Shown here in pieces: positions 30,003 through 62,586 of a stretch of DNA of 64,000 bases (position 1 is its first letter; each line of letters begins with the position of its first letter). Source of the stretch: Hyaloscypha bicolor E (taxonomy: Eukaryota > Ascomycota > Leotiomycetes > Helotiales > Hyaloscyphaceae); NCBI RefSeq assembly GCF_002865645.1, contig NW_020194558.1, forward strand, positions 2,942,014-3,006,013. The letters run 5' to 3'. The notes under the pieces were generated by a model that did not search any database, was not told where the DNA came from, and saw only the letters and a list, made by a program, of their open reading frames with translations. The translations under genes and the position numbers were made by a program.

Positions 30003-30683
30003 CTACGCCAAACAAGATGTGTAGTGATGCAAAAAGGCAATAATAGGTCTCGTATCATTCACATCACACTGCGAAACAAGCCCCTCCCCGCAATGTGCCG
30101 TATGTGAGTAATTCCCAATATGATCATCGATCGGTGTCCCGAAAACCCGCGACCGATGCAGCTTCCTCCATGTATACGTGCAATGTATCCAGTGATACTC
30201 CACAGAAACAAACATAGGCTCAGTACCCCCATTTGATTTAATACTCTCGATAGAAAGCTCCTGCTGTGCGTTTTCATCCCCGTAAAAGTGCCAATCCTTC
30301 AGTTTCAAAAACTCGTCTTCGAGTTCGGCATCGAAACAGGCGTTGGGAACGAAGGCGCCGGCTATGAAATCATAGACGCAGTCGTTTTGTAGGGCTTCCA
30401 CAGGCGAATTCCCGCAATGCTTCCATGGAACTGAGGCGGAGTTTATAAGTTCGGTGGGATGGTGGAATACAAGTACTACCCAGCCGATCATTCCCAGCAA
30501 GACAAGAGCCGTGACAACCAAGTAGATTTTCCACCATGGAATCCTTCTTAATTTTTCTTGGAGCCGTTCTTTCAGTAAATGTTCCAGGTGTGTTCGCGTG
30601 CTATCGGTTGAAACGGATCGTGATGAACGGCGATTCTCCGCCTCGGAGGAATACTGGAGTAGGCCGGTGGTGGATTCGTCCAT
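30003..30683 (-). CDS. Single-pass membrane protein with two HxxHC motifs (UstYa/DUF3328-like layout)
   Basis: 226 residues, single exon. It has a basic N-terminal cytosolic segment, one membrane span at about residues 52-73, then a lumenal domain with KHCGNSPVEAL at 88-98, DCVYD at 101-105, and two HxxHC motifs (HWIHC at 164-168, HTAHC at 194-198). This layout (short N-terminus, one span, two HxxHC motifs) is that of the fungal UstYa/DUF3328 proteins, some of which oxidise ribosomal peptides and other metabolites. The CGxSxxEA and CxxD region marks a related branch whose function is not established to my knowledge. A second family member lies at 42308-42961. No intron is needed, and the frame is undamaged although it lies next to the RIPed block. 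Confidence 0.75.
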   Translation of the reverse strand: MDESTTGLLQYSSEAENRRSSRSVSTDSTRTHLEHLLKERLQEKLRRIPWWKIYLVVTALVLLGMIGWVVLVFHHPTELINSASVPWKHCGNSPVEALQNDCVYDFIAGAFVPNACFDAELEDEFLKLKDWHFYGDENAQQELSIESIKSNGGTEPMFVSVEYHWIHCTYTWRKLHRSRVFGTPIDDHIGNYSHTAHCGEGLVSQCDVNDTRPIIAFLHHYTSCLA

Positions 30684-31807
30684 TTCTGAGCTACCTATTC
30701 GAGCTGCATATTAACCAAACTGCTCTACTTTGTTATTTGTACATTATATACTCACTATGGATGACTAAACTGAATAGAAAGGAAAATAATTTCCTACCAA
30801 GACGTCAAATGTTCGAACAATGACTGAGTTGAAGGGAAAACCAGCGCCTACCCAGATGGCAGAATGTTTCAGCACAGACCAAAAGTCAAGCTATAGTACA
30901 GAAAACGGTCGCTACCCTGTACTTCAGGGGCTTCGGCCTCTTGCAGCGTAGCGTGTTAAGCGATACTACTGTACATCGTCTCGCACTGCCACTTACGGAC
31001 AAACGCCTCGCCTCGCCTCGCCCCGCCTCGCACTACCCCGAATGTAAACCGAATCAGTAATGATTGGCCATTTCACCAGTGCTCTCGATGGATAGACAGA
31101 TCGTCTCACTATTTTTTGGATCCGGTTCATGAAAATGGATCGGATCTTCGTTTTTCAGAAGATTCATTTCAATTGGATGCCCTGTATCCTTGGTGCCAAA
31201 AGACCAGATCAATTTAGTAAATCCACTTTCTAAAGATTTTAAGATATGTTTCTAGGCTTCGCTCTTAAAAAGAATGCTGCAATACCCCGCAAGCTTGAAC
31301 ATCTGTTTTGTACTTTTGGGGGAGATTGAAATTTATGCTGTGAAATTAAGTATAAATAGAGGTTCCTGCCTGATTTATCATGAATCGCATGGACGAACCG
31401 TAGGATCCGTTCTCAATGTTTATAAATAGACTTGGTTCCATCCGTTCATCGAAAATACCAAGTCACCCAACATTCACATAAGTTGTATGTTGTAAAGATA
31501 AGTCAGATATTTTGGTCTGTTTAATAATCTAGAAGAGATGTCGTTCTGTCTTCATTTTACTATACGTCTCGACCACCCGTTTCCAAAAAAAACACCGTTG
31601 CCGAAAGGCCACAGGATCGCCGGGTACCACTGTGGCTGCCCACAGAATCGCTGTGAGTAGGATAGCACAAAGTGAGATGAAGGTATGATCTAATAATAAT
31701 CTTAGGATAACAAATGGCAGAGAAACTACCCTAGGCAAAAAAAGAGATCTCCCTGTTCCGACATAAAGCTCGAAGAATTTGGCTTGCCACAATCAACTGT
31801 TGTCCAA
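30684..31807. other. Intergenic region
   Basis: Upstream of the HxxHC gene and downstream of the aldo/keto reductase. It holds a short run of CGCCT pentamers at 31004-31031 and two TATAAATAG-like boxes near 31350 and 31420. An 87-codon open frame on the - strand (31529-31792) lacks an ATG at its start. I see no supported gene. Confidence 0.5.
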
Positions 31808-33339: not shown

Positions 33340-34611
33340 TTAAACCAGAGGAAGATGCAGTCCAATACTCTTCACCGCAGAAAACCATTCACAATTTCCT
33401 GCACCAGCCTCTCGTTCCTTCCAGCAATGCTCTACAATTTCATGGGCTTGTGGTAAAGTCCCGAGAACTCCTTGTGCGAAACACTCTACAGCCACAAGAT
33501 CTCGAAAGGTATTCTGCTTGTCTTCCGAGACCATGCATCCGGTGACACAAGCTGGCCATACAACTCTAGCTAGTAGTTTCCGGTCTCTCAAAGCTCCCAA
33601 GGCATCCATTGCTCTTGCAACACTGTCATTGATCTCCGGTTGATCTGGGTGAGCGCCAGAAACCACTACATGAAGATACGTCAACGCAGCAAGAGCAAAG
33701 ACTTCAGTGATCGCCGAGCATTGGTCTTCTGGTGTAAAATTTGAGGAGGTTCGCATCTGACTTGTATTTTGGGACAAAATGCCAGCAAGCCCCTGATTCA
33801 AGGCTGCCTCAATCTTCACCCCCTGCCTGACAAGCTCGGCGACGTTCAGTTTTCGGTTCTCCTCACATTCTCTTTTCCAATTATCCAGTTGGGAGACCTT
33901 GAAGATTAGAAGCATGGCCCAGTTTTTGCAACCGAATAGTCTCTCTAACTGGATATTGCCTCTTTCAAGTAGAACCTCATGATTGAATTGTGAGGAAAGC
34001 TTGGCTCTCGTAGAAACATGTGCCAGGATGTCTAGCCACAGGAAGGCACCGAGAAGCAACTCTATTGCAAAATGATCCTCGGGGGAAAGAAAGTATATGT
34101 CTTTTAGTTCTTAATCTTCGAAGTCTCGAAGGCTTGGATCTGAGAATCTGACTCTGGTCTGTACTAAGGGGGGCAGCAAAGCAGTGGCTGCCCGCAGATG
34201 AACAGACCAATCACTAGACGAATTACTACTGAAAACCTGTATTATGGTCAGTTTTAGCTCTTATAATGGAAATGTGATGATTGTAGTTGAAATTACCTCC
34301 AAGAAGACAAATTGTAGGATACATGCAAGAGCTTTGATACTGCGAAGCATGCCTTCAGACCCGATCCACGTGTGAGCTTCACCTAGACGCAGTTGGAGTT
34401 CCTTCAAGGCAAAGATATAGTAGTCAACTCTTTCTGAAGGACGAAGATTCTCGAATAGCGATGGTCTTTTCCTCGAGAATTTTGAGTCACGATGGTACTG
34501 GCTGAAAGCAAGTGTTGCAAAATAGATCGTTTCGTCCCCGGTTAGAAGTGTTAATAACCAGCCGCGGCCCGTGCCATTGGCAGAGGAATTATGAAAGGGA
34601 AATTGAGTATA
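33340..34611 (-). pseudogene. C-terminal half of a Zn2Cys6 transcription factor (split by a transposon)
   Basis: The - strand frame runs from the transposon edge (34611) through QFPFHNSSANGTGRGW, LLTLLTGDE and YFATLAFSQYH, crosses a clean 60-bp intron (34296-34237, GTAATT...ACAG) and continues to the stop at 33340. QFPF...GRGWLL followed by an ALAxSxYH segment is characteristic of the fungal-specific regulatory domain (Fungal_trans_2 type) that follows Zn2Cys6 fingers. Two lesions are present: the 3.19-kb element that separates it from the N-terminal half, and an in-frame TAA at 34113-34111 between RDFED and ELKDIYFL. CAA to TAA is the simplest origin. The frame is otherwise intact, so inactivation looks recent. 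Confidence 0.8.
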
Positions 34612-37600
34612 CAGTCGGTCCGATCCAAAAGCGACAAAACGGTCGCTCTTTTACGCCCATAATAACTTTTTAACCATAACCCTAATTAATTTATACTAAG
34701 TAATATAATTATAGAATAGAACCAGGCAAAAAATACCTATTAATTAGATTTTTAATATAATTTATAGTTTATTAATAATCGAGGCTTAAAGTATACGGAC
34801 CCTTTTTACTTTTTTGATTTTTCCCTATATAAAACGCAAAAATATTTACTTACTAAGATTATATAAGCCCGGGCTTTAGGGAGAGATTATAGTATCTTAC
34901 TAGCCTTATTATTAATATAATAATAATAATTAAGTTCTATAAGCTCAAGTAAGCCTTCCTAAATACTAAATATAGCTTTTTTTAGTACTATATATATTAT
35001 ATATATAGTAGGTCCCTAATTATATAGGTTTTAAGCTAATTTTTGGCCGAACTAAATCTATAAACCTTATTTATTACTTAGCTATCTTCTTTCCCTTACT
35101 TTTGCATATTATTCCATTTATTTATTACCTTTTTAGATATTATTCTATGGCATTTTTGCTTCCGTATATACTAAGTAGCTTATTTAATACTTAATTCCTT
35201 CCGATATATATCTATCTAGTAGAACGTATGGTTATAAAACCTCCATATAGTCTTAATTAAATAAGCTTCAAATGCCTCTATTATCTTAATCTTAGTATCT
35301 GGAAAGCTAGTCTTCTTTACTTAATAATATCGAGTTTTGCTATATCCCTAGTATATCTTAATTAGATTAATTTCGTAGTAGAACTTCGGTAAAAATATAG
35401 CCTTATATCCCTAATCTATAATAAGCTCTTTAACTTGGGACTTCTCTTTAAAGAAGTCTTAGTAATTTAATAGTATATAAGCTAAATAGTATATTTATTT
35501 AATAGCAGGAAGATATTTAAGGAATATAGTATACTTAGTACCCTTTAGATACTTAAATCTTAAGCCAGGGATATTGCAATCTTGCTTAATAAGAATCTGT
35601 TCTATGCCCTTAGGCTCTCTTTCTCTATTTAAATTAAGTTACTAAAGAACTTAAATAGTATCCTATAATCCCGGAATTATATACTCTAGTAAAAAGTATA
35701 TATTTCTTCTATAGGCCTTAATATTATTCTTTTTAACTTTCTCTAATTCCTTATTTATACTAAAGGCATTTAGTATATCTTTACTATATAAAGCATATAT
35801 AGAAAACTAATTAAATATTAGAATAGCTATATAGTTTAGGTATTTCTATTTAAATATATCAAGTATCCTAGTAATCTATACTAGTAGCTATTTTGTATTT
35901 TACTAGGGGTCCCTATTTAAGCCTGGATATATAATTTAATGGATATCCAAATTAGGATTATCCGGGATAAAAATGCCTTTATTATTTAGTACCCTAATAC
36001 GCCCCTTAGGGCTTATAAATTCAGAATTATAAATTAGCCTCTCTTTACTCTTTCCGGGCATTTTTTGCTAATTATCTACTAGCCAGAGGCTCTTTTTATA
36101 GTCAAATCCATAGAAATAGCTCTTATTATAGAAGTATATTATATATACCTGAACTCTAATTAGAAATAAAGATTAAATCATATGCCATATACTAGCTTTA
36201 TCCTCCTCGTATTAAACTATATATAATAAAAGCTCCTTTATTAAGGGTAAAAATATCTCTTAATAATACTCAATTATATTAGGGCATTCGTATCTATTTA
36301 TATAAAGCCCTTTCTTAGTCTCATAGTAATAAAAGCCGAGCCTAGGGAGCTATAAGTAAGCTATACTATAGGTAATAGGCTTTTCTATTATTAATAATAA
36401 TTAAGGTAAAATCTCCTAATTAATAGTATTTAGGAAATTGTTTAGTAATATTATTCCAAGCTCTTAATTAATTAACTAAGTATAGTAGGCTAAAAAAATA
36501 TCCTTATTATTTAGATAAGAGATACTTTCTCTTTTACTACCCCTAGTTTCTTGGGAAATACCATACTACTATTAATAGTAATTAAATAGCTCCCTAATTC
36601 GCTAAGCTAGTATCTTTCTATTATTTAAGTAGTAATTACTAGAAGCTACTAAGAGTAATATATTAATCCTTTCAAGTTAATATTACCCTAGCTTTAGAAG
36701 CTATTAGGTATATTACCGGAGTAAGTATAAGTCAGTAATTATATATAGAATATATAGCTCTTTGGTTTAAGCTAGCTTAATATCTATATTATTAAGAACT
36801 TCTTAGTAAGTTATTTATATATCTAGAGCTTTATTATCTCTGCAAGCGTTTCTAATAAGGGCATCCAAAAATAGCTCGTTTATTTCATTATCTTTATCTT
36901 TAAGCCTTTACTTTTTCCTTAATTATATATTCCTAGAGATATTAATTAATCTCCTAATAATATCGAATTATAGCTTCTTTTATTTAAAAGATAGTATAAT
37001 TATAGGAGTCTTAAGCCTACTAGATTATTCTATAACTTAAGTATCTTTTGCCCTCTAATTATATATATATTTTTATTAAGTTCTTAATAGCTTTACTAAT
37101 TCCTTTATTAATTTGGGAATATATAAGCCTCTGGAAGCTAGAAATAATATTAGTATACTTATATTATAATAAAATAAGATAAGAAACTTACTAGCCTGCT
37201 CTATAAGTCTTTACTCTTGCTATATGAATATAGGCTTCTCTAAAATAATTATCTTATTATTACTAATAATAAGCTTTCGCTAAGCCCAAAAGAGAGTTAA
37301 ATCTTTAAGCTTTACTTTATTATTTTATTTAATATCTGATTTATTAGAATCATTTTCTATATTAGAGGATTTCCCATATCGTTCGTTAATAGATACTTGG
37401 ATTATAGCTTCTTTAGCTATAGTAAGAACTATAATTAAATTAAGAGTCAAATTAGCTCGCTTGCGTTTCTAAAGGCTTATAGAGGTAGCTATTAGAAGTA
37501 TATAAAAGGGGCACTGAATTAGGTTTGTGGTTATTAAGATATTAATATAATTATAGAAGAGCGGTTAACTAAGGGGGGCAGTCACGTGATAACCAAAGTA

Positions 37601-37803
37601 AAAAAACGACTATATAAAATGCAAAAATATTTACTCGCTTAATTACGTATATTATAACTTTCTTAATAATAAAGATATTATAATTTTGAGAACATAGAAT
37701 TAATTCCTATAGTATATAGTATAGTTTTAATTAATACGATTTATATTAATTAGTATTGTGGTGGTTTTTATTTTTTTTTGTCGCTTTTGGATCGGACCGA
37801 CTG
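34612..37803 (-). mobile_element. Tc1/mariner-like DNA transposon, copy A (3192 bp), inside the regulator gene
   Basis: Bounded by TA duplications at 34610-34611 and 37804-37805. The terminal inverted repeats are 28 bp and begin CAGTCGGTCCGATCCAAAAG; beyond them the two ends differ. The coding strand is minus. The long, stop-riddled frame encodes a large protein whose C-terminal part reads IFLPKFYYEINLIK (near 35400), matching the LPKxHCELNxIE motif around the last acidic residue of fungal DDE transposases, followed by a block ending RKQKCHR-like residues. Stops fall where Gln/Trp would be expected, i.e. RIP. Composition is A+T-rich but milder than in the copia elements. Copy B at 59394-62586 is the same family in the opposite orientation. 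Confidence 0.9.
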
Positions 37804-39125
37804 TAGAATGCTTGGTCCAAGTAATGCATAAGTAATGCAGCTTCATTCCGACAAAAACTCCGACAGGCGTCTGGCTTGTCCCCGGGTGCAGTCCAAGAAA
37901 CAAGCTCATTAGCCTTGCAAGTATTCACTGCTAGAGAAGGTTTCTCATGGGAAGCCTTGCTCACTTGATTGTTGCTGAAGGCGGATATTGAAACATCGAG
38001 ACTTCTTTGTGTGGTTTTTAACGCTCCATCGTCAATTGATGTTTCAAATCCAACGAGACATATTGATCCCGTATCTAAACATGTATTCGCAGGTCCCGGA
38101 AGCAATTGCAAATGAGATATTGGTTCGAGAGTTGAGGGTGAGCTGATTGGTTGTAGCTCGAATGATGCGTTTTGTGGTACAGATACATCTCGAGTTTGTG
38201 TTGAAATTGGTACGCTACCATAGCTAGCTTACCAGTCCTTCCAGCACCAGGTTCAACCACTAATTCAGGGTTCTCCACTCTCATTTGTCATGCGTCACTC
38301 GCCGAGCTTACCAAGCTTATTAGTATATCGTCATTTTGATTACCTTTGATTTATCAGCTAATTAATAATACATCGGAGAAAGCGGGCTCGGTATCACCGG
38401 TATCGCCAAAGGGTAATGGGAATAAATCCCTTACTTTGGACACTTTTCCTCTGTTTCCACAACCCACTCTTCTGTATCTAGTCATTCTGCAGTCTGTCAA
38501 CCTTCAATATATCGATTTTCCATCAATAAATCGATTACTTCACAATAGTTTGGATGTGGGTATGCAGAAATACTGTTTCCCCGTAGCTAATAGAAGATTC
38601 ACCTATGGGAGTGCTGATAATTGTAGAGAAATCAAATTTCGTGTCATTAGAACCGAGTATCTCGTGGTTGAATCCAGACAAAAAGTAACTATATGAAGGA
38701 TCCCAAGACATAGGAATATCAATCCCACTAGTAGTACTACACACGACACTTTCTGACGTAGAGTCTTCTTCTGAAGATACTGATGATGTTGGGAGAGCCG
38801 TCGGAAGGGTTGAGATTTCTGGGAAAGGAACGGGCCCTGATAGGTTGCGAGAACGCCTTTTAATTGTCTGCTTAACGATGCGCTTGATCCTCACAGCTTG
38901 GGATTTCTCTAACACACCACCATCCAGCCATGCTGGTCGTGGTCCATACCCATCACAGCTCAGGTTGAGACCCGTGCAATTAGAGCAGAGGGGATGGAGT
39001 TCGTCGCATTTTTTTCTCCTGACTCGACAAGTCCAGCACCCGTGAAGGCTGCGAGCTTCTTCAATGCATACAAAGTCATTACATGCAACAACACAGGCTC
39101 GAGAAGTAAAAATGAGCTTACTCAT
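37804..39125 (-). pseudogene. N-terminal half of the same Zn2Cys6 transcription factor
   Basis: The likely start is ATG at 39125 with a 63-bp intron after the fourth base (39121-39059, GTAAGC...GAAG), giving MKARSLHGCWTCRVRRKKC. An alternative without this intron starts MSKLIF. The binuclear zinc cluster is complete: C-W-T-C-R-V-R-R-K-K-C, then CSNCTGLNLSC, then GYGPRPAWLDGG, and a basic linker (KRIVKQTIKRR). A second coding stretch on the - strand from about 38220 to 37804 (YGSVPISTQTRDV ... ANELVSW ... LLMHYLDQAFY) ends exactly at the transposon. The junction between the two stretches (about 38600-38220) is unresolved; it may be a long intron or a damaged segment. The gene presumably regulated neighbours such as the aldo/keto reductase; this is inference from proximity only. 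Confidence 0.75.
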
Positions 39126-39386
39126 GTTTGGTTCGTTAAAGGAAAGCCAAATTCTGGCCAACCAGGCTGTTTGCCTACCCCACAAAATAGCTTTTTTACA
39201 TCGCTCTGCGATTCCGAGCTAATGATTTCACTCCTTTCCTTTGCCGCTGTGGAACATTGAGACGAGATTTATATGCAATGTGAAGGTGATGACGAGTAAA
39301 GGATGAGCCATGAGGGAAAGACTTGCACCAAGTTCCGACAGGCATACGAGAATGTGCGCTACTTCCAGCGTTTTATACCGGCTTTA

Positions 39387-39636: not shown

Positions 39637-40084
39637 TAACGTCAGCAATACTAGGCATTGCGCACTCTACCTGTAAGAAGTGCCATTATGATTTACTGCT
39701 GCCACAGACTCTCGGCAATTAGCATATCTGTGCCATTTAACTCCTTGTCATTCGGGAATTGTTTCTCTGCTCTTTCCTTCTTCGTTCCTTCTGCCCCCCT
39801 GACCCCAATCGATTGTACAACCACGCTTGTATTCTGCAGCGATAGAAAGCAGCGCAGAACCTCGTAACCGAACTCCCTACCAAAAGCACGACCCCACTAA
39901 AAGCACGATTTAGCGAATATTTTATTTCTTAATAATTAAATAACTATAAATCCGATTTATATAATATTTTATGTATGTACTCTATATATATATATATAAT
40001 AAAATAAGTAAATAATATAATAATGAAGTAGTTTAAAAGATATATATTTTACTTAATTTATTATATTTTAATATTAAATATATA

Positions 40085-40154
40085 AAATATTATATATATA
40101 AAATATTATATATATAAAATATTATATATATAAAATATTATATATATAAAATAT
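40085..40154. repeat. 15-bp tandem repeat
   Basis: About five copies of AAATATTATATATAT inside the degraded TIR element. Confidence 0.85.
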
Positions 40155-40699
40155 TATTAAAATTATATAAGTTATACTTTATTTATTATAATAACTTGAA
40201 ATATATAAAAATAATTTATTAAGACCTATTATTTTCAAAAAAAAAAATAAGTTTAAGCTTAATTTTTTATAAGAATAATAATTTTTTTATCTTTTATAAA
40301 ATAAAAGTTAATAAAATATATATAATAAAAATTATAATTTTTATTACTAATATTATATATTAGAATTTTATTAATTACTAAATCTTTATTAAAAACTCTT
40401 TATATATTTTATTTTAATATTTTATAAAAAATTAATAATATTAACTTTATTAATAATAACTTTTATTTAAATATTCTTTAAATAATATCCGTATTATTAA
40501 TTTATAAGATTTTAATAAAAATAATATAGACTTAAGATATAATTAAGTAAAAGTAATTATAATATATATAAGATTATATGTAATTAAAAGGCATATAATA
40601 AACTTCGAATATTACAAGTATTAATTCAAGAAATTAATAGCCCTTTAATATTATAATTCTATTACTATTTATATTATAGGCTTTAAGCTTATAAATTAC

Positions 40700-40734
<35 letters not shown>

Positions 40735-40857
40735 AGGGCCTTCTATTAAAAAAGGCTTCCCTAGATTTTATAAAAGAAATAGAAATTAGTTTTATACCAA
40801 ATCTAATATTATAGTTTTATAATTTACTAATTTATTTTATTGTTTTATTATTTATTA

Positions 40858-41043
40858 ATAAATATCTTATAATAATAAATATCTTATAATAATAAATATC
40901 TTATAATAATAAATATCTTATAATAATAAATATCTTATAATAATAAATATTAATAATAAATATCTTATAATAATAAATATCTTATAATAATAAATATCTT
41001 ATAATAATAAATATCTTATAATAATAAATATCTTATAATAATA
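40858..41043. repeat. 17-bp tandem repeat
   Basis: About eleven copies of AAATATCTTATAATAAT head to tail, one of them shortened. A satellite-type array, not spaced repeats. Confidence 0.9.
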
Positions 41044-42307: not shown

Positions 42308-42961
42308 TCATAATAGATATGGACCGCAGCTCAAAAAGTCGACTTCACCATAGTTCATAGAATATGGCGGTGATGGTATGCTGTTGACGAGAATACGGGC
42401 GCAGTGTACCGTGTGATCGTAAGTGTACGACTCACTGTCGATCAGTTTTACTTTGCCTTGGGCTTGCGACTCGAGGGCGAGAGCTTGCAACTTCCAGACA
42501 TACACGCAGTGAGCTCTGTGGTGAAGGTCGTTGGTATACATGTGTGTGTGCTCTCCAAAGCGTATAACGTCCAATGGAATTTCGTTCGTGGCTTCTGGAT
42601 CTGAAAAGAATCGAAAGGCTCCCTCCAATAAGTATTCTTCGGATAATGCTTTATTATAGCAGTCTTCTTTGACCCAACCAGTCATCATGACATCAAACAC
42701 GCAGCCACGTTCCCGAGCTTCTGAAGCGCTGTTTCCGCAGTCTTTCCATACTTTGTATTCCCCAGAACTGGAAGTTGCAATACTATTTCCAATCGAAAAT
42801 CCGAGGGTCAATATCTGAAGAAGAAACAATATCCCGATGGATATGCTTAGACCGATGACATGCAACCTTGACAAGCAATAAACTGCATCTTGTCGTCGGT
42901 TGGTAGACTCTTCTCTATCTGAAAGGAGATTTTCAGCGTCAGGGTCAAACTTATAGTCCAT
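42308..42961 (-). CDS. Second single-pass HxxHC membrane protein (UstYa/DUF3328-like layout)
   Basis: 217 residues, single exon. It has an N-terminal cytosolic tail, a membrane span at about residues 34-58, then KDCGNSASEARERGC at 73-87 with FD following, and two HxxHC motifs (HRAHC at 148-152, HTVHC at 183-187). The motif order and spacing mirror the protein at 30003-30683 (CGNS, C-x-x-D, HxxHC-x-Y-x-W, D...Y-x-HTxHC), so the two are paralogues or members of one family, though clearly diverged. In UstYa proteins the histidine motifs are thought to form a metal-dependent oxidative centre; whether that holds here is inference. The gene is undamaged and lies between small transposons. Confidence 0.75.
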   Translation of the reverse strand: MDYKFDPDAENLLSDREESTNRRQDAVYCLSRLHVIGLSISIGILFLLQILTLGFSIGNSIATSSSGEYKVWKDCGNSASEARERGCVFDVMMTGWVKEDCYNKALSEEYLLEGAFRFFSDPEATNEIPLDVIRFGEHTHMYTNDLHHRAHCVYVWKLQALALESQAQGKVKLIDSESYTYDHTVHCARILVNSIPSPPYSMNYGEVDFLSCGPYLL

Positions 42962-43367
42962 AACGGAAACTGTGTGAAGATTTTGAATTTTTGCGGCAAT
43001 TTAAAAAATATTTGGGGGAAGTTGTCTTCGAGATGTCGACAACATTTCCACGCACCAGCTCGCATCGCCAGTGACCACATGCTGGTGCTCTACTTGGTAC
43101 GCTGACCCCCTGCCATTTTTTGAGTTTGGCAGGGGTTGCGAGAACCTTAACTAACCCCCTGTCTCCTCGTCCCGTCCCTCGTTGAGAGCAACGGATAATC
43201 CATGCCGATCACTTTTGCCTTATCGTCTCGCACTTCCATGTCCATTACTGACAGCTCGGTGAGCTCCTGCAGTTCGTCCCAGCCCCTGCCATCATGTAAG
43301 CCCTACGCCGTAATACAGCCGCAAGCGAAACAACAGTTCCAGCCGCATTTTTAAGCGAACTTTAGTA
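42962..43367. promoter_or_regulatory. Upstream region of the second HxxHC gene
   Basis: About 400 bp with a short hairpin near 43112-43136 (CCCTGCCA ... GGCAGGGG). Otherwise nothing recognisable; it ends at the foldback element. Confidence 0.35.
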
Positions 43368-55239: not shown

Positions 55240-57287
55240 ATGGCTGACGGGAACAGCCAACCCTGCTTCGATGAAGACCAAAACAACGAGCACGGAATCG
55301 AACATGCAAAGAATGGTAGGAACGATTCAGATACGATAAGGCTCAGAAAAGCCCTTGGCCTAATTCAGCAAGTAGTTCCCAAACCGGAAATCAGCCCTCA
55401 AGCAAGGAAGGGGAAGCGCTCTCGTGACAAGCTGGCAAAGGCAACGCCACAGCTGCGTTTCATAACGACCACGAATCCAGAACAGGATAAAGATCCCCGG
55501 ACACGAAAGGCTGTCCGGTCGCATGTTGCTCGTCAATTTCACGTTGTAAGGCAACAAGCTTGGGAAGATGAGGAAGAATTACAAGGTAGGAACCAATCTC
55601 AATCCCCGGCTCCGAATGCTGAAAATGCTGTTGGAGATTCGCTTGGGAGAACCTCTCGAACTCTGTCACTTAAAATGTATTAGTTTTCATGGATCGTGAC
55701 TTACGGTTATAGGGGGTAGAAGTGGAAACGTTACAGGTCATGCCAACACGGCGTTGGAGGTACAGGGATGCTCTCAGCAGAAGTTCCGACAGCCAACTGG
55801 AAGTTTGGTCACTGTGGTAGGGCCACAGGGAATTGATCCATTTTCTAGTTGCTCATTGCACGTCACACCTCGCATGAACATCCTGATAGATCATTGTAAG
55901 AACCGATCTCCTTGGATCTCATTTCATATATATTCTGATTCTCGTTGATGAAGTCACAATACTTATGAGTCTAAATTATATCACTGGCTTACCTAAGACC
56001 CACAGTCTTGAACGTCGTTGGACCTCAGATGAACGTGTTTGCCATCAACTCAAGTAACGCTACAGATCCAATAAAAACGATCTATATCCCATTCAGCATC
56101 GCAGACCCTTGTGTTTTCCATGGTCTCTTACTACTCTCGGCCCAAAGCTTTGCTAAATTATCAGGCGATACGAGCTATCGTATTACTGCTTTGACTCATA
56201 AAGCGGAGTGCATCCGGTTGGTCAATAAAGCCTTGGGAGTTTCTGGAAAAGCGACGAGCGATGCCACAATTGCAGCAGTTTTGATGCTTGCCGTTGAGGA
56301 GGTCAGTTTAATTTTATTGACTCATATCTCCAGAACAATCTATGAACCGATCCAGTCTAATGTAGTTCTAAGCTTCTTCTGGGGAATCTCGAGGTATTCA
56401 AGGCCCATTTGAGTGGCCTCCAGTCTATGGTGTCGATCAGAGGTGGCCTCCACACTCTGGGCCTCGGTGGAATTCTGGAACAGCTGGCACTGAGGTACAT
56501 ACCTGCCCCAAATCCGTATTATGTGGCACTGCTAACGAGATATGTCTTCAGTTGTGATCGTGCCTGCGAGATATTTACGGGATCGAGGCCACTGAGAACG
56601 TTGTCTGAGAACCTCTCAGAAAGACGCCCATCAACTGGGTTACCGCCAGGCTTCCACGAGATCCTCCAATCGGCTGGTATCAATCGTCAAATGGCGGGAT
56701 TCATTGCCGATGCACAAACTACCTCGCTGATCAAGATGTATTTCGCATATGAAGGGACAACTGACGCCGAGCTACGATTTTCAGATACTCACTGCGACTT
56801 GATTTCCCAGCACATCGATCAGATATCGTCTCAGTATATGATCACAAGTGAGGCGATCGAGGCAGCTCCTCTTTTACTGGTCGAAGAATGCCTCAGTTAT
56901 GGGCTTTTGGCGTATCGTATGGTGATGCTTCGACCCACCCCACCTGACCCTTATTTCACTTTAGAAGTTGGAAATCGGCTGAAGACCACATTGGTGAGAA
57001 CGGAATTCCTAGTGCATTGGCGAGACCAACTTGACTTGTTGCTCTGGATAACATTCATGGGTGCGAGTACAACAACGGAAGGTCCGCTGCGAGAATGGTA
57101 TGTGCTTCTGCTAAGTGGTATCAACGGCCACCTAGGCACGAAGTCGTGGGCGGAGATTAGTCGTATTTTGGAAAAGTTCTTATGGCTCGGACGCTGCGAA
57201 AGTCTAGGGATGGTTTTGTGGTTCGAGGTGGAAGGCCTCTCTACTGACCAACCTTTGCTCCAACCTTTAATGTTGGCTTGGAAATAG
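55240..57287 (+). CDS. Fungal-specific regulator-domain protein without zinc cluster, four exons
   Basis: 607 residues. Exons: 55240-55676, 55720-55895, 56006-56301, 56373-57287; introns of 43, 110 and 71 bp are GT..AG and all phases agree. The N-terminus has a basic segment (ARKGKRSRDKLAKATPQ) and LRFITTTNPEQDKDPRTRKA followed by RSHVARQFHVVRQQ, a signature of a family of fungal proteins that share the regulatory domain of Zn2Cys6 factors but lack the cysteine cluster. Next come GIDPFSSCSLHVTPRMNILI, TIYIPFSIADPCVFHGLLL and AVLMLAVEE, then LLLGNLEVFKAHLSGLQSMV and SIRGGLHTLG, all typical of that domain. No cysteine cluster is seen, so DNA binding is doubtful. Intact and free of RIP. Role unknown; it may regulate local genes. 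Confidence 0.8.
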
Positions 57288-59393: not shown

Positions 59394-62300
59394 TAGTTGG
59401 TCCGATCCAAAAGCGACAAAAAAAAATAAAAACCACCATAATACTAATTAATATAAATCGTATTAATTAAAACTATACTATATACTATAGGAATTAATTC
59501 TATGTTCTCAAAATTATAATATCTTTATTATTAAGGAAGTTATAATATACGTAATCAAGCAAGCAAATATTTTTGCATTTTATATAGTCATTTTTTTACT
59601 TTAGTTATTATATAACTACCCCCCTTAGTTAACCGCTCTTCTATAATTATATTAATATCTTAATAACTATAAACCCAATTTAGTACCCCTTTTATATACT
59701 TCTAATAGCTATCTCTATAAGCCTTCAGAAACGCAAGCGAGCTAATTTGACTCTTGATTTAATTATAGTTCTTACTATAGCTAAAGAAGCTATAATCCAA
59801 GTATCTATTAATAAATAGTATGGGAAACCCTCTAATATAGAGGATAATTTTAATAAATCAGATATTAAATAAAATAACGAAGTAGAGCTTGAAGATTTAA
59901 CTCTCTTTTGGGCTTAGTAAAAGCTTATTATTAGTAATAATAAGATAATTATTTTGGAGAAGCCTATATTCGTATAGTAAGAGTAAAAACTTATAGAGTA
60001 GGCTAGTAAGTTTCTTATTTTATTTTATTATAATATAAGTATACTAATATTATTTCTAGCTTTTAGAGGCTCGTATATTCCCAAATTAATAAAGGAATTA
60101 GTAAAGCTATTAAGAAACTTAATAAAAACATATATATAATTAGAGGGCAAAAGATACTCAAGTTATAGAGTAATCTAGTAGGCTTAAGACTCCTATAATT
60201 ATACTATCTTTTAAATAAAAGAAGCTATAATTCAATATTATTAGGAGATTAATTAATGTCCCTAGAAATATATAATTAAGGGAAGAGCAAAGGCTTAAAG
60301 ATAAAAATAATAGAATAAACGAGCTACTTTTAGATACCCTTATTAGAAATACCTATAGAGATAATAAAGCTCTAGATATATAAATAACTTACTAAGAAGT
60401 CCTTAATAATATAGATATTAAGCTAGCTCAAACCAAAGAGCTATATACTTTATATATAATTACTAACTTATACTTACTCCGGTAATATACCTAATAGCTT
60501 CTAAAGCTAGGGTAATATTAATTTGGAAGAATTAATATATTACTCTTAGTAGCTTCTAGTAATTATTACTTAAATAATAAAAAGATACTAGCTTGGCAAA
60601 TTAGGGAGCTATTTAATTACTATTAATAGTGGTATAGTATTCCCCAAGAAACTAGGGATAATAAAAGAGAAAATGCTTCTTATCTGGATAATAAGAATAT
60701 TTTTTTAGCCTGCTATACTTGGTTAATTAATTAAAAGCTTGGAATAATATTACTAAACAATTTCCTAAATATTATTAATTAGGAGATTTTACCTTAATTA
60801 TTATTAATAATAGAAAAGCCTATTACCTGTAGTATAGCTTATTTATAGCTCCCTAGGCTTAGCTTTTATTACTATGAGACTAAGAAAGGGCTTTATATAG
60901 ATAAATACGAATACCCTAATATAATTAAGTATTATTAAGAGGTATTTTTACCTTTAATAAAGAAGCTTTTATTATATATAGTTTAATATAAGGAGAATAA
61001 AGCTAGTATATAGTATATAATTTAATCTTTACTTCTAATTAGAGTTTAGGTATATATAATATACTTCTATAATAAGAGCTATTTCCATGGATTTGACTAT
61101 AAAAAGAGCCTCTAGCTAGTAAATAATTAGCAAAAAATGCCCGGAAAGAATAAAGGAAGGCTAATTCATAATTCTGAATTTATAGGCCCTGAGAGGTATA
61201 TTAGGGTACTAAATAATAAAGGTATTTTTATCCCGGATAATTCTAATTTGGATGCCTGTCAAATTATATATTTAGGCTCAAATAGGAACCCTTGGTAGGA
61301 TATAAAATAGCTACTAGTACAGATTACTAGGACACTTAATATATTTAAATAGAAGTACCTAAATTATATAGCTATTCTAATATTTAATTAGTTTTCTATA
61401 TATGCTTTATATAGCAAAGATATACTAAATGCCTTTAGTATAAATAAGGGATTAGGGGGAATTAAAAAGGGTAATATTAAGGCCTATAAAAGGGATATAT
61501 ACTTTTTATTAGAGTATATAATTCCGGGATTATAAGGCACTATTTAAGTCCTTTAGTAACTTAATTCAAATAGAGAAAGAGAGCCTAAGGGCATAGAACA
61601 GATTCTTATTAAGCAAGATTGCAATATCCCTGGCTTAAGATTTAAGTATCTAAAGGGTACTAAGTATACTATATTCCTTAAATATCTTCCCGCTATTAAA
61701 TAAATATACTATTTAGCTTATATACTATTAAATTACCAAGACTTCTTTAAAGAGAAGTCCCAAGTTAAAGAGCTTATTATAGATTAGGGATATAAGGCTA
61801 TATTTTTACCGAAGTTCTACTACGAAATTAATCTAATTAAGATATACTAGGGATATAGCAAAACTCGATATTATTAAGTAAAAAAGACTAGCTTCCCAGA
61901 TACCAAGATTAAGGTAGTAGAGGTACTTAAAGCTTATTTAATTAAGACTATATAGAGGTTTTATAACTATATATTCCGCTAGATAGATATATATTAGAAG
62001 GAATTAAGTATTAAATAAGCTGCTTAGTATATACGGAAGCAAAAATGCCATAGAATAATATCTAAAAAAGTAATAAATAAATGAGATAATATGCAAAAAT
62101 AAGGGAAAGAAAGTAGCTAAGTAATAAGTAAGGTTTATGAATTTAGTTCGGCCAAAAATTAGCTTAAAACCTATATAATTAGAGACCTATTATATATATA
62201 ATATATATAGTACTAGAAAAAGCTATATTTAGTATTTAGGAAGGCTTACTTGAGCTTATAGAACTTAATTATTATTATTATATTAATAATAAGGCTAGTA

Positions 62301-62586
62301 AGATACCGCGATCTCCCCCTAAAGCCCGGGCTTACGTAACCTTAGTAAGCAAATATTTTTGCGTTTTATATAGGGAAAAATCAAAAAAGTAAAAAAGGTC
62401 CATATACTTTAAGCCTTAATTATTAATAAACTACAAATTATATTAAAAATCTAATTAATAGGTATTTTTCGCCTGGTTCTATTCTATAATCGCATTACTT
62501 AGTATAAATTAATTAGGGTTATAGTTAAAAAGTTATTATGGGCGTAAAAGAGCGACCGTTTTGTCGCTTTTGGATCGGACCGACTG
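59394..62586 (+). mobile_element. Tc1/mariner-like DNA transposon, copy B (3193 bp), inverted relative to copy A
   Basis: TA duplications at 59392-59393 and 62587-62588. The right end carries the intact terminal repeat (complement of CAGTCGGTCCGATCCAAAAG); the left one begins TAGTTGG, two C-to-T changes. The coding strand is plus: from about 59730 (RKRKRANLTLDLIIVLTIAK) to about 62070 (RKQKCHRIIS) one frame can be followed through many TAG/TAA at Gln positions, about 780 codons. Near 61805-61850 it reads IFLPKFYYEINLIK, the region around the last acidic residue of a DDE transposase (LPKxHCELNxIE in intact relatives). The large N-terminal extension is unusual for the superfamily. Inactive by RIP. 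Confidence 0.9.

Follow-up and report, generated by a model that had tools for sequence, protein, structure and literature searches.

A Zn2Cys6 regulator gene of Hyaloscypha bicolor carrying a solo LTR, a RIP-mutated DNA transposon and an in-frame stop codon

Described elements and the locus

Tc1-like DDE transposons of fungi (PF13358) duplicate a TA at the target and have inverted ends, and in classic Tc1 the spacing from D to E is shorter than 150 residues. Transposons of the Fot1/pogo group, like the element described here, also combine a TA duplication with short inverted ends. RIP takes place in the sexual cycle, via RID or a related methylase. The changes that it leaves are C to T in CpA/TpG context, as described in the available portion of PMC12543289. 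Among the Ty1/Copia retrotransposons of ascomycetes, the fungal GalEa elements have LTRs that start with TGT, and make a 5-bp duplication; LTR lengths given in the accessible part of PMC5445492 are 138-311 bp, with one outlier of 545.

The window examined here is a stretch of 64,000 nucleotides (C24:2942014-3006013 of a source genome of 82.0 Mb in 76 contigs). Within it a gene for a Zn2Cys6/Fungal_trans_2 regulator, on the - strand from about 39125 to 33340, has three lesions: an LTR, a transposon and a TAA. The transposon resembles Tc1-like fungal transposons in its TA duplication, its inverted ends and a related transposase, but differs in a DDE_3 score below the cut-off and in a 150-residue gap between the presumed second D and E that is longer than in classic Tc1. 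The LTR shares the TGT start and 5-bp duplication with GalEa, and RVT_2 is present between pairs of LTRs of its kind; however, it ends CAATA rather than CA and is 349 bp long, against the 138-311 bp in the portion of PMC5445492 available. We consider it probable (roughly 0.75) that the gene has been decaying, with the LTR arriving before the transposon and RIP changing the transposon in place or at an earlier site. The sequence itself shows both insertions with their duplications, the in-frame junctions, the stop and the copy-specific changes of RIP type; the order of the insertions is an inference. The find is ordinary in kind and constitutes no new kind of system. In the parts of the literature that were accessible, no treatment of the regulator locus was met.

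A regulator gene with three lesions

The coding pieces of the regulator all lie on the - strand. The first (38548-39125; its ATG, placed at 39125, is a guess) is an open frame with the Zn2Cys6 cluster (Zn_clus, PF00172, E=1.6e-10 in 38535-39218). The second (37806-38195), recognised by paralogue matches and its open frame, ends LLMHYLDQAF at the transposon; the 37746-38228 piece gave no Pfam match. Beyond the transposon, the third (34297-34611, starting YTQFPF) holds the first part of Fungal_trans_2 (PF11951, profile positions 14-108 in 34261-34650). It is followed by a likely intron (34237-34296, GTAATT...ACAG, read from the frames and from matches to relatives), a short coding piece (34114-34236, matching P0001 at 1-29 and P0002 at 20-63), the in-frame TAA (34111-34113) and the last coding piece (33340-34110), in which profile positions 141-381 were matched with E=1.7e-39. 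Cluster and regulatory domain are thus both present across the pieces, in the same order as in paralogue loci. A homologue search with one exon returned two metagenomic proteins, at 46% and 39%, and a plasmid collection searched with part of the gene gave no match.

The transposon occupies 34612-37803 (3,192 bp, 26.3% GC). Its 30-nt inverted arms, at 34610-34639 and 37776-37805, are 100% complementary and consist of 28-bp TIRs (left, 34612-34639, + strand; right, 37776-37803, - strand) plus the TA target duplication (34610-34611 and 37804-37805), which was read from the arms and from the flanks of other copies. At least 88 matches to the transposon were found genome-wide (a lower bound, with 40 of 177 candidates scored), and so the inverted repeat is not due to chance. 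Of the 30 best loci, 25 have both TIRs with at most 4 mismatches, and all 25 have TA on both sides; in two further copies (L021 and L026), also TA-flanked, one end has 5 and 6 mismatches, respectively, and three loci (L023, L025 and L037) are partial matches only. Insertion of the 3,192-bp element is a clean TA-site transposition.

When the transposon and one TA are removed, the regulator frame continues as LLMHYLDQAFYTQFPF. If 45 bases from each side are joined and only one TA is kept, the result is CCAAGCATTCTA/TACTCAATTTCC, and one of its three frames is open, reading NEAALLMHYLDQAFYTQFPFHNSSANGTG; the open frame across the transposon site reads LLMHYLDQAFYTQFPFHNSS. As comparators for the uninterrupted gene we used paralogues (six loci, 22-35% identity over the last exon), which are not empty alleles of the site; an empty allele was not found. 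Junction spacing was read in four of the six (L040, L041, L042 and L044; L043 and L045 were left out), and all four run through without interruption, having exactly two residues where the transposon lies in the regulator. Moreover, all four regulator pieces match L040 and L041 in order. A first-pass annotation of this DNA had proposed that a transposon splits a Zn2Cys6 regulator and that removal of 34612-37803 together with one TA restores the frame. The open junction frame and the two-residue spacing in the paralogues bear this out, and the joined flanks are consistent with the codons then proposed for the junction (GCA TTC TAT ACT CAA TTT). The TIRs, the TA duplication and the Zn_clus and Fungal_trans_2 matches in the flanks agree with the proposed split, and the uninterrupted paralogues agree with the proposal that the two halves are one gene, the flanks being of one protein kind rather than of different families.

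The interrupting copy itself has no long open frame. The least mutated of the 26 aligned copies, L027 (39.8% GC), has an open frame of 350 residues (element positions 1656-2705, - frame), and the transposase frame of relatives likewise runs in - strand orientation within the element at 34612-37803. The L027 frame matched DDE_3 (PF13358) weakly (E=1.7e-5; 25.2 bits, below the Pfam cut-off of 28.6). Transposase relatives numbered 402 at E<=0.001; among the best 120 of these, PF13358 was carried by relatives, and several had been named Tc1-like transposase by their source. About 150 residues separate the presumed second D from E in the L027-family transposase (the residues were chosen by eye). 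The element thus appears to be Tc1-like, on a weak DDE_3 match. (A Fot1/pogo identity was rejected: DDE_1, PF03184, occurs at 93 places in the genome, and no copy of the 30 has one inside it or up to 1 kb away.) A second copy, 93% identical and in opposite orientation, lies in the window at 59395-62586 on the - strand. Ten copies (L025, L036 and L037 included) match as two parts with a gap of 203-468 bp and look interrupted by additional small inserts.

Between the first and second coding pieces lies a 349-bp genome repeat (38199-38547, + strand, TGTTGAAA...CAATA), which starts TGT and ends TA. A comparison of the flanks of its copies identified a 5-bp target duplication, GTTTG, at 38194-38198 and 38548-38552. 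In a genome search in which 40 of 201 candidates were scored, 40 of the 41 matches listed, the regulator copy counted, had at least 91% identity; identical 5-bp flanks were found in 23 of 28 copies compared, the regulator copy among them. At C1:243304-248434 and C29:738909-744045 the repeat forms same-direction pairs about 4.8 kb apart with an RVT_2 match between them, which identifies it as a Copia-type LTR and the regulator copy as a solo LTR. With the LTR and one GTTTG removed, the regulator frame reads HTHIQTRDVSVPQ; left in place, the LTR introduces in-frame stops. Around the LTR, 41 GT...AG pairs preserve an open frame, so that splicing might in principle remove it, and the reading that it could not was dropped.

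The residues on either side of the TAA match P0001 at 1-29 and 34-290, and hence the stop falls within a stretch that is continuous in relatives (P0001 and P0002). This nonsense codon, downstream of the transposon, carries no date. The LTR, the transposon and this one TAA aside, the coding pieces are open and no frameshift is needed to read them, so the regulator may have functioned until lately. (With no constraint, the private divergence of the LTR would predict about 1.9 new stops over 2,154 coding bases; 1 was seen, which is non-decisive.) Both the second insert and the stop were absent from the first-pass account, which had taken the transposon to be the gene's disruption. That part of the account is not supported, since the same frame contains an apparently older 349-bp solo LTR and an in-frame TAA.

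RIP and the order of the insertions

Compared with L027, the transposon in the regulator has 435 C>T/G>A changes, 4 reverse changes and no transversions, and 244 of the 435 fall at the 317 CpA/TpG sites of L027. The composite RIP index is +0.45 to +1.21 inside the transposon and negative outside it. The changes in this comparison are transitions only, with CpA preferred, and are limited to repeats, and in being C>T/G>A with CpA/TpG preferred the changes are like those described for RIP in the portion of PMC12543289 available to us. The sets of changes are copy-specific: relative to L010, the nearest copy, 104 sites are changed only in the regulator's transposon, 111 only in L010 and 349 in both.

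Because RIP yields transitions only, transversions and reverse transitions can reveal that a heavily mutated copy is young. Among the nine closest copies, 711 alignment columns have transitions only and 6 have a transversion, in no case one that only the copy at 34612-37803 carries. Set against the other 25, that copy has just five private changes, 4 C>T and 1 G>A. Over its 3,192 bp it thus has no transversion of its own among the copies compared, which argues that the transposon is young; together with its TA-site transposition, this agrees with the earlier suggestion of a clean and recent insertion. The same check is usable for other RIP-mutated insertions.

The LTR differs in this respect. 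Compared with 27 others, its 349 bp contain 7 private changes, of which 5 are of non-RIP type (T>C or C>A), and this is the highest private count among the 28 copies (L053 is next, with 6). Non-RIP private changes are thus 5 in 349 for the LTR and 0 in 3,192 for the transposon (Fisher p=9.1e-6, or p=9.3e-5 when two adjacent LTR changes are taken as one event). Two private marks of the LTR occur a single time in the genome. These counts suggest that the LTR probably inserted before the transposon, with the caveat that a lost or unsampled LTR subfamily would mimic age in a comparison of 28 copies over 349 bp.

If the LTR is the older insert, the transposon probably hit a gene that was already failing, and we infer that the regulator had failed by the time the transposon arrived. 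The sequence of events would be that a Copia retrotransposon entered the gene, duplicating 5 bp, and was reduced to the 349-bp solo LTR, that a Tc1-like transposon then entered a TA inside the regulatory domain, and that the transposon was mutated by RIP at CpA/TpG, either in situ or at an earlier site, with the surrounding gene bearing no detectable trace. An apparently older LTR and a premature stop in the same gene point to ordinary decay rather than to a single clean silencing event. The case also urges caution, in that even where a transposon insertion looks clean, the loss of the gene may have another cause.

Largely RIP-spared ends of the transposon copies

The ends were compared in the 23 copies for which they are aligned, L010, L021 and L026 having been dropped. 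In the outermost 28 bp there are six CpA-type sites, which are changed in 0-22% of these copies; the mean at the other CpA-type sites is 60%. At the right end, the number of copies changed, of 23, is 2 at 41 bp, 8 at 44 bp, 12 at 46 bp and 21 at 49 bp, and at the left end it is 3 at 46 bp and 18 at 59 bp; the change rate therefore climbs near 45 bp from the ends. Sites with low rates occur further in too (left, 111 bp, 2/23; right, 116 bp, 0/23), and 19 interior sites are changed in at most 15% of copies. In the flanks of 26 loci, positions 2-50 bp from the element resemble those at 800-1400 bp, and a RIP trace is absent. A possible difference from RIP as described is that the outer 45 bp or so of the copies are largely spared, and the flanks are without trace.

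Note that the copies were picked largely by recognisable ends, which is a selection bias. In the three dropped copies, 5 of 18 end CpA sites are changed, and in L026 the right end has 3 of 3 changed. Four copies that are interrupted or truncated gave a mixed result at their internal edges. The idea that selection on the ends accounts for their intactness is weakened. We offer only tentatively, and rate as somewhat improbable, the idea that RIP in this fungus fades about 45 bp inside both repeat edges and stays out of the flanking DNA, such that Tc1-like copies killed by RIP would mostly keep working ends and could move in trans. If this were true, the RIP defence would leave transposon copies that are dead but mobile, and neighbouring genes would be spared.

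Alternative readings and the surroundings of the gene

Three other accounts of the locus may be set against decay with the LTR first. It is rather unlikely that the regulator worked, with the LTR spliced out and the stop arising later, until a single recent hit by the transposon, the disruption first proposed, silenced it and its local targets. The otherwise open coding pieces, the 41 frame-keeping GT...AG pairs and the youth of the transposon are what such a course would produce, but two coding pieces have the LTR in frame between them, its duplication is the mark of an insertion into coding sequence, and it brings stops, and a TAA stands in frame downstream of the transposon. That the flanks are unrelated genes brought together by chance is extremely improbable: a middle piece that has no Pfam match of its own would fit, but the pieces line up in order with shared paralogue loci (L040 and L041), and the two-residue spacing at the junction in four of four paralogues read contradicts it.

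The remaining account concerns the place where the transposon was mutated. It would have undergone RIP elsewhere and then moved, with intact ends, by means of the transposase of another copy, and we regard this as doubtful. Both TIRs of the element at 34612-37803 are unmutated, with 0 of 6 CpA-type sites changed, and the gene flanks have no RIP signature, as would be expected after such a move. Against this, most copies have spared ends, with a margin that seems to exceed the 28-bp TIR, and no compared copy shares the change set of this one (L010, the nearest, is separated from it by the 104 and 111 site differences given above). Since cut-and-paste transposition leaves no twin, however, the missing twin does not count decisively against a prior move. 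Decay of the regulator with the LTR arriving first, which leaves the site of RIP as either of the two, is the reading that we favour.

Several other features lie near the regulator in the window. Downstream of it, on the same strand, is a spliced aldo/keto reductase gene of which three pieces match PF00248, a candidate neighbour for a putative local regulon. The regulator is flanked by two membrane-protein frames, at 30003-30710 and 42308-43000, which look similar and have no Pfam match. AT-rich blocks lie around the gene-bearing stretch, at 2001-30000 (12-30% GC) and 40001-41000 (9% GC). A second regulator-like gene is present on the + strand at 55975-57287; Fungal_trans_2 positions 16-106 were matched in 55975-56412, and a further open frame at 56361-57287 had no Pfam match.
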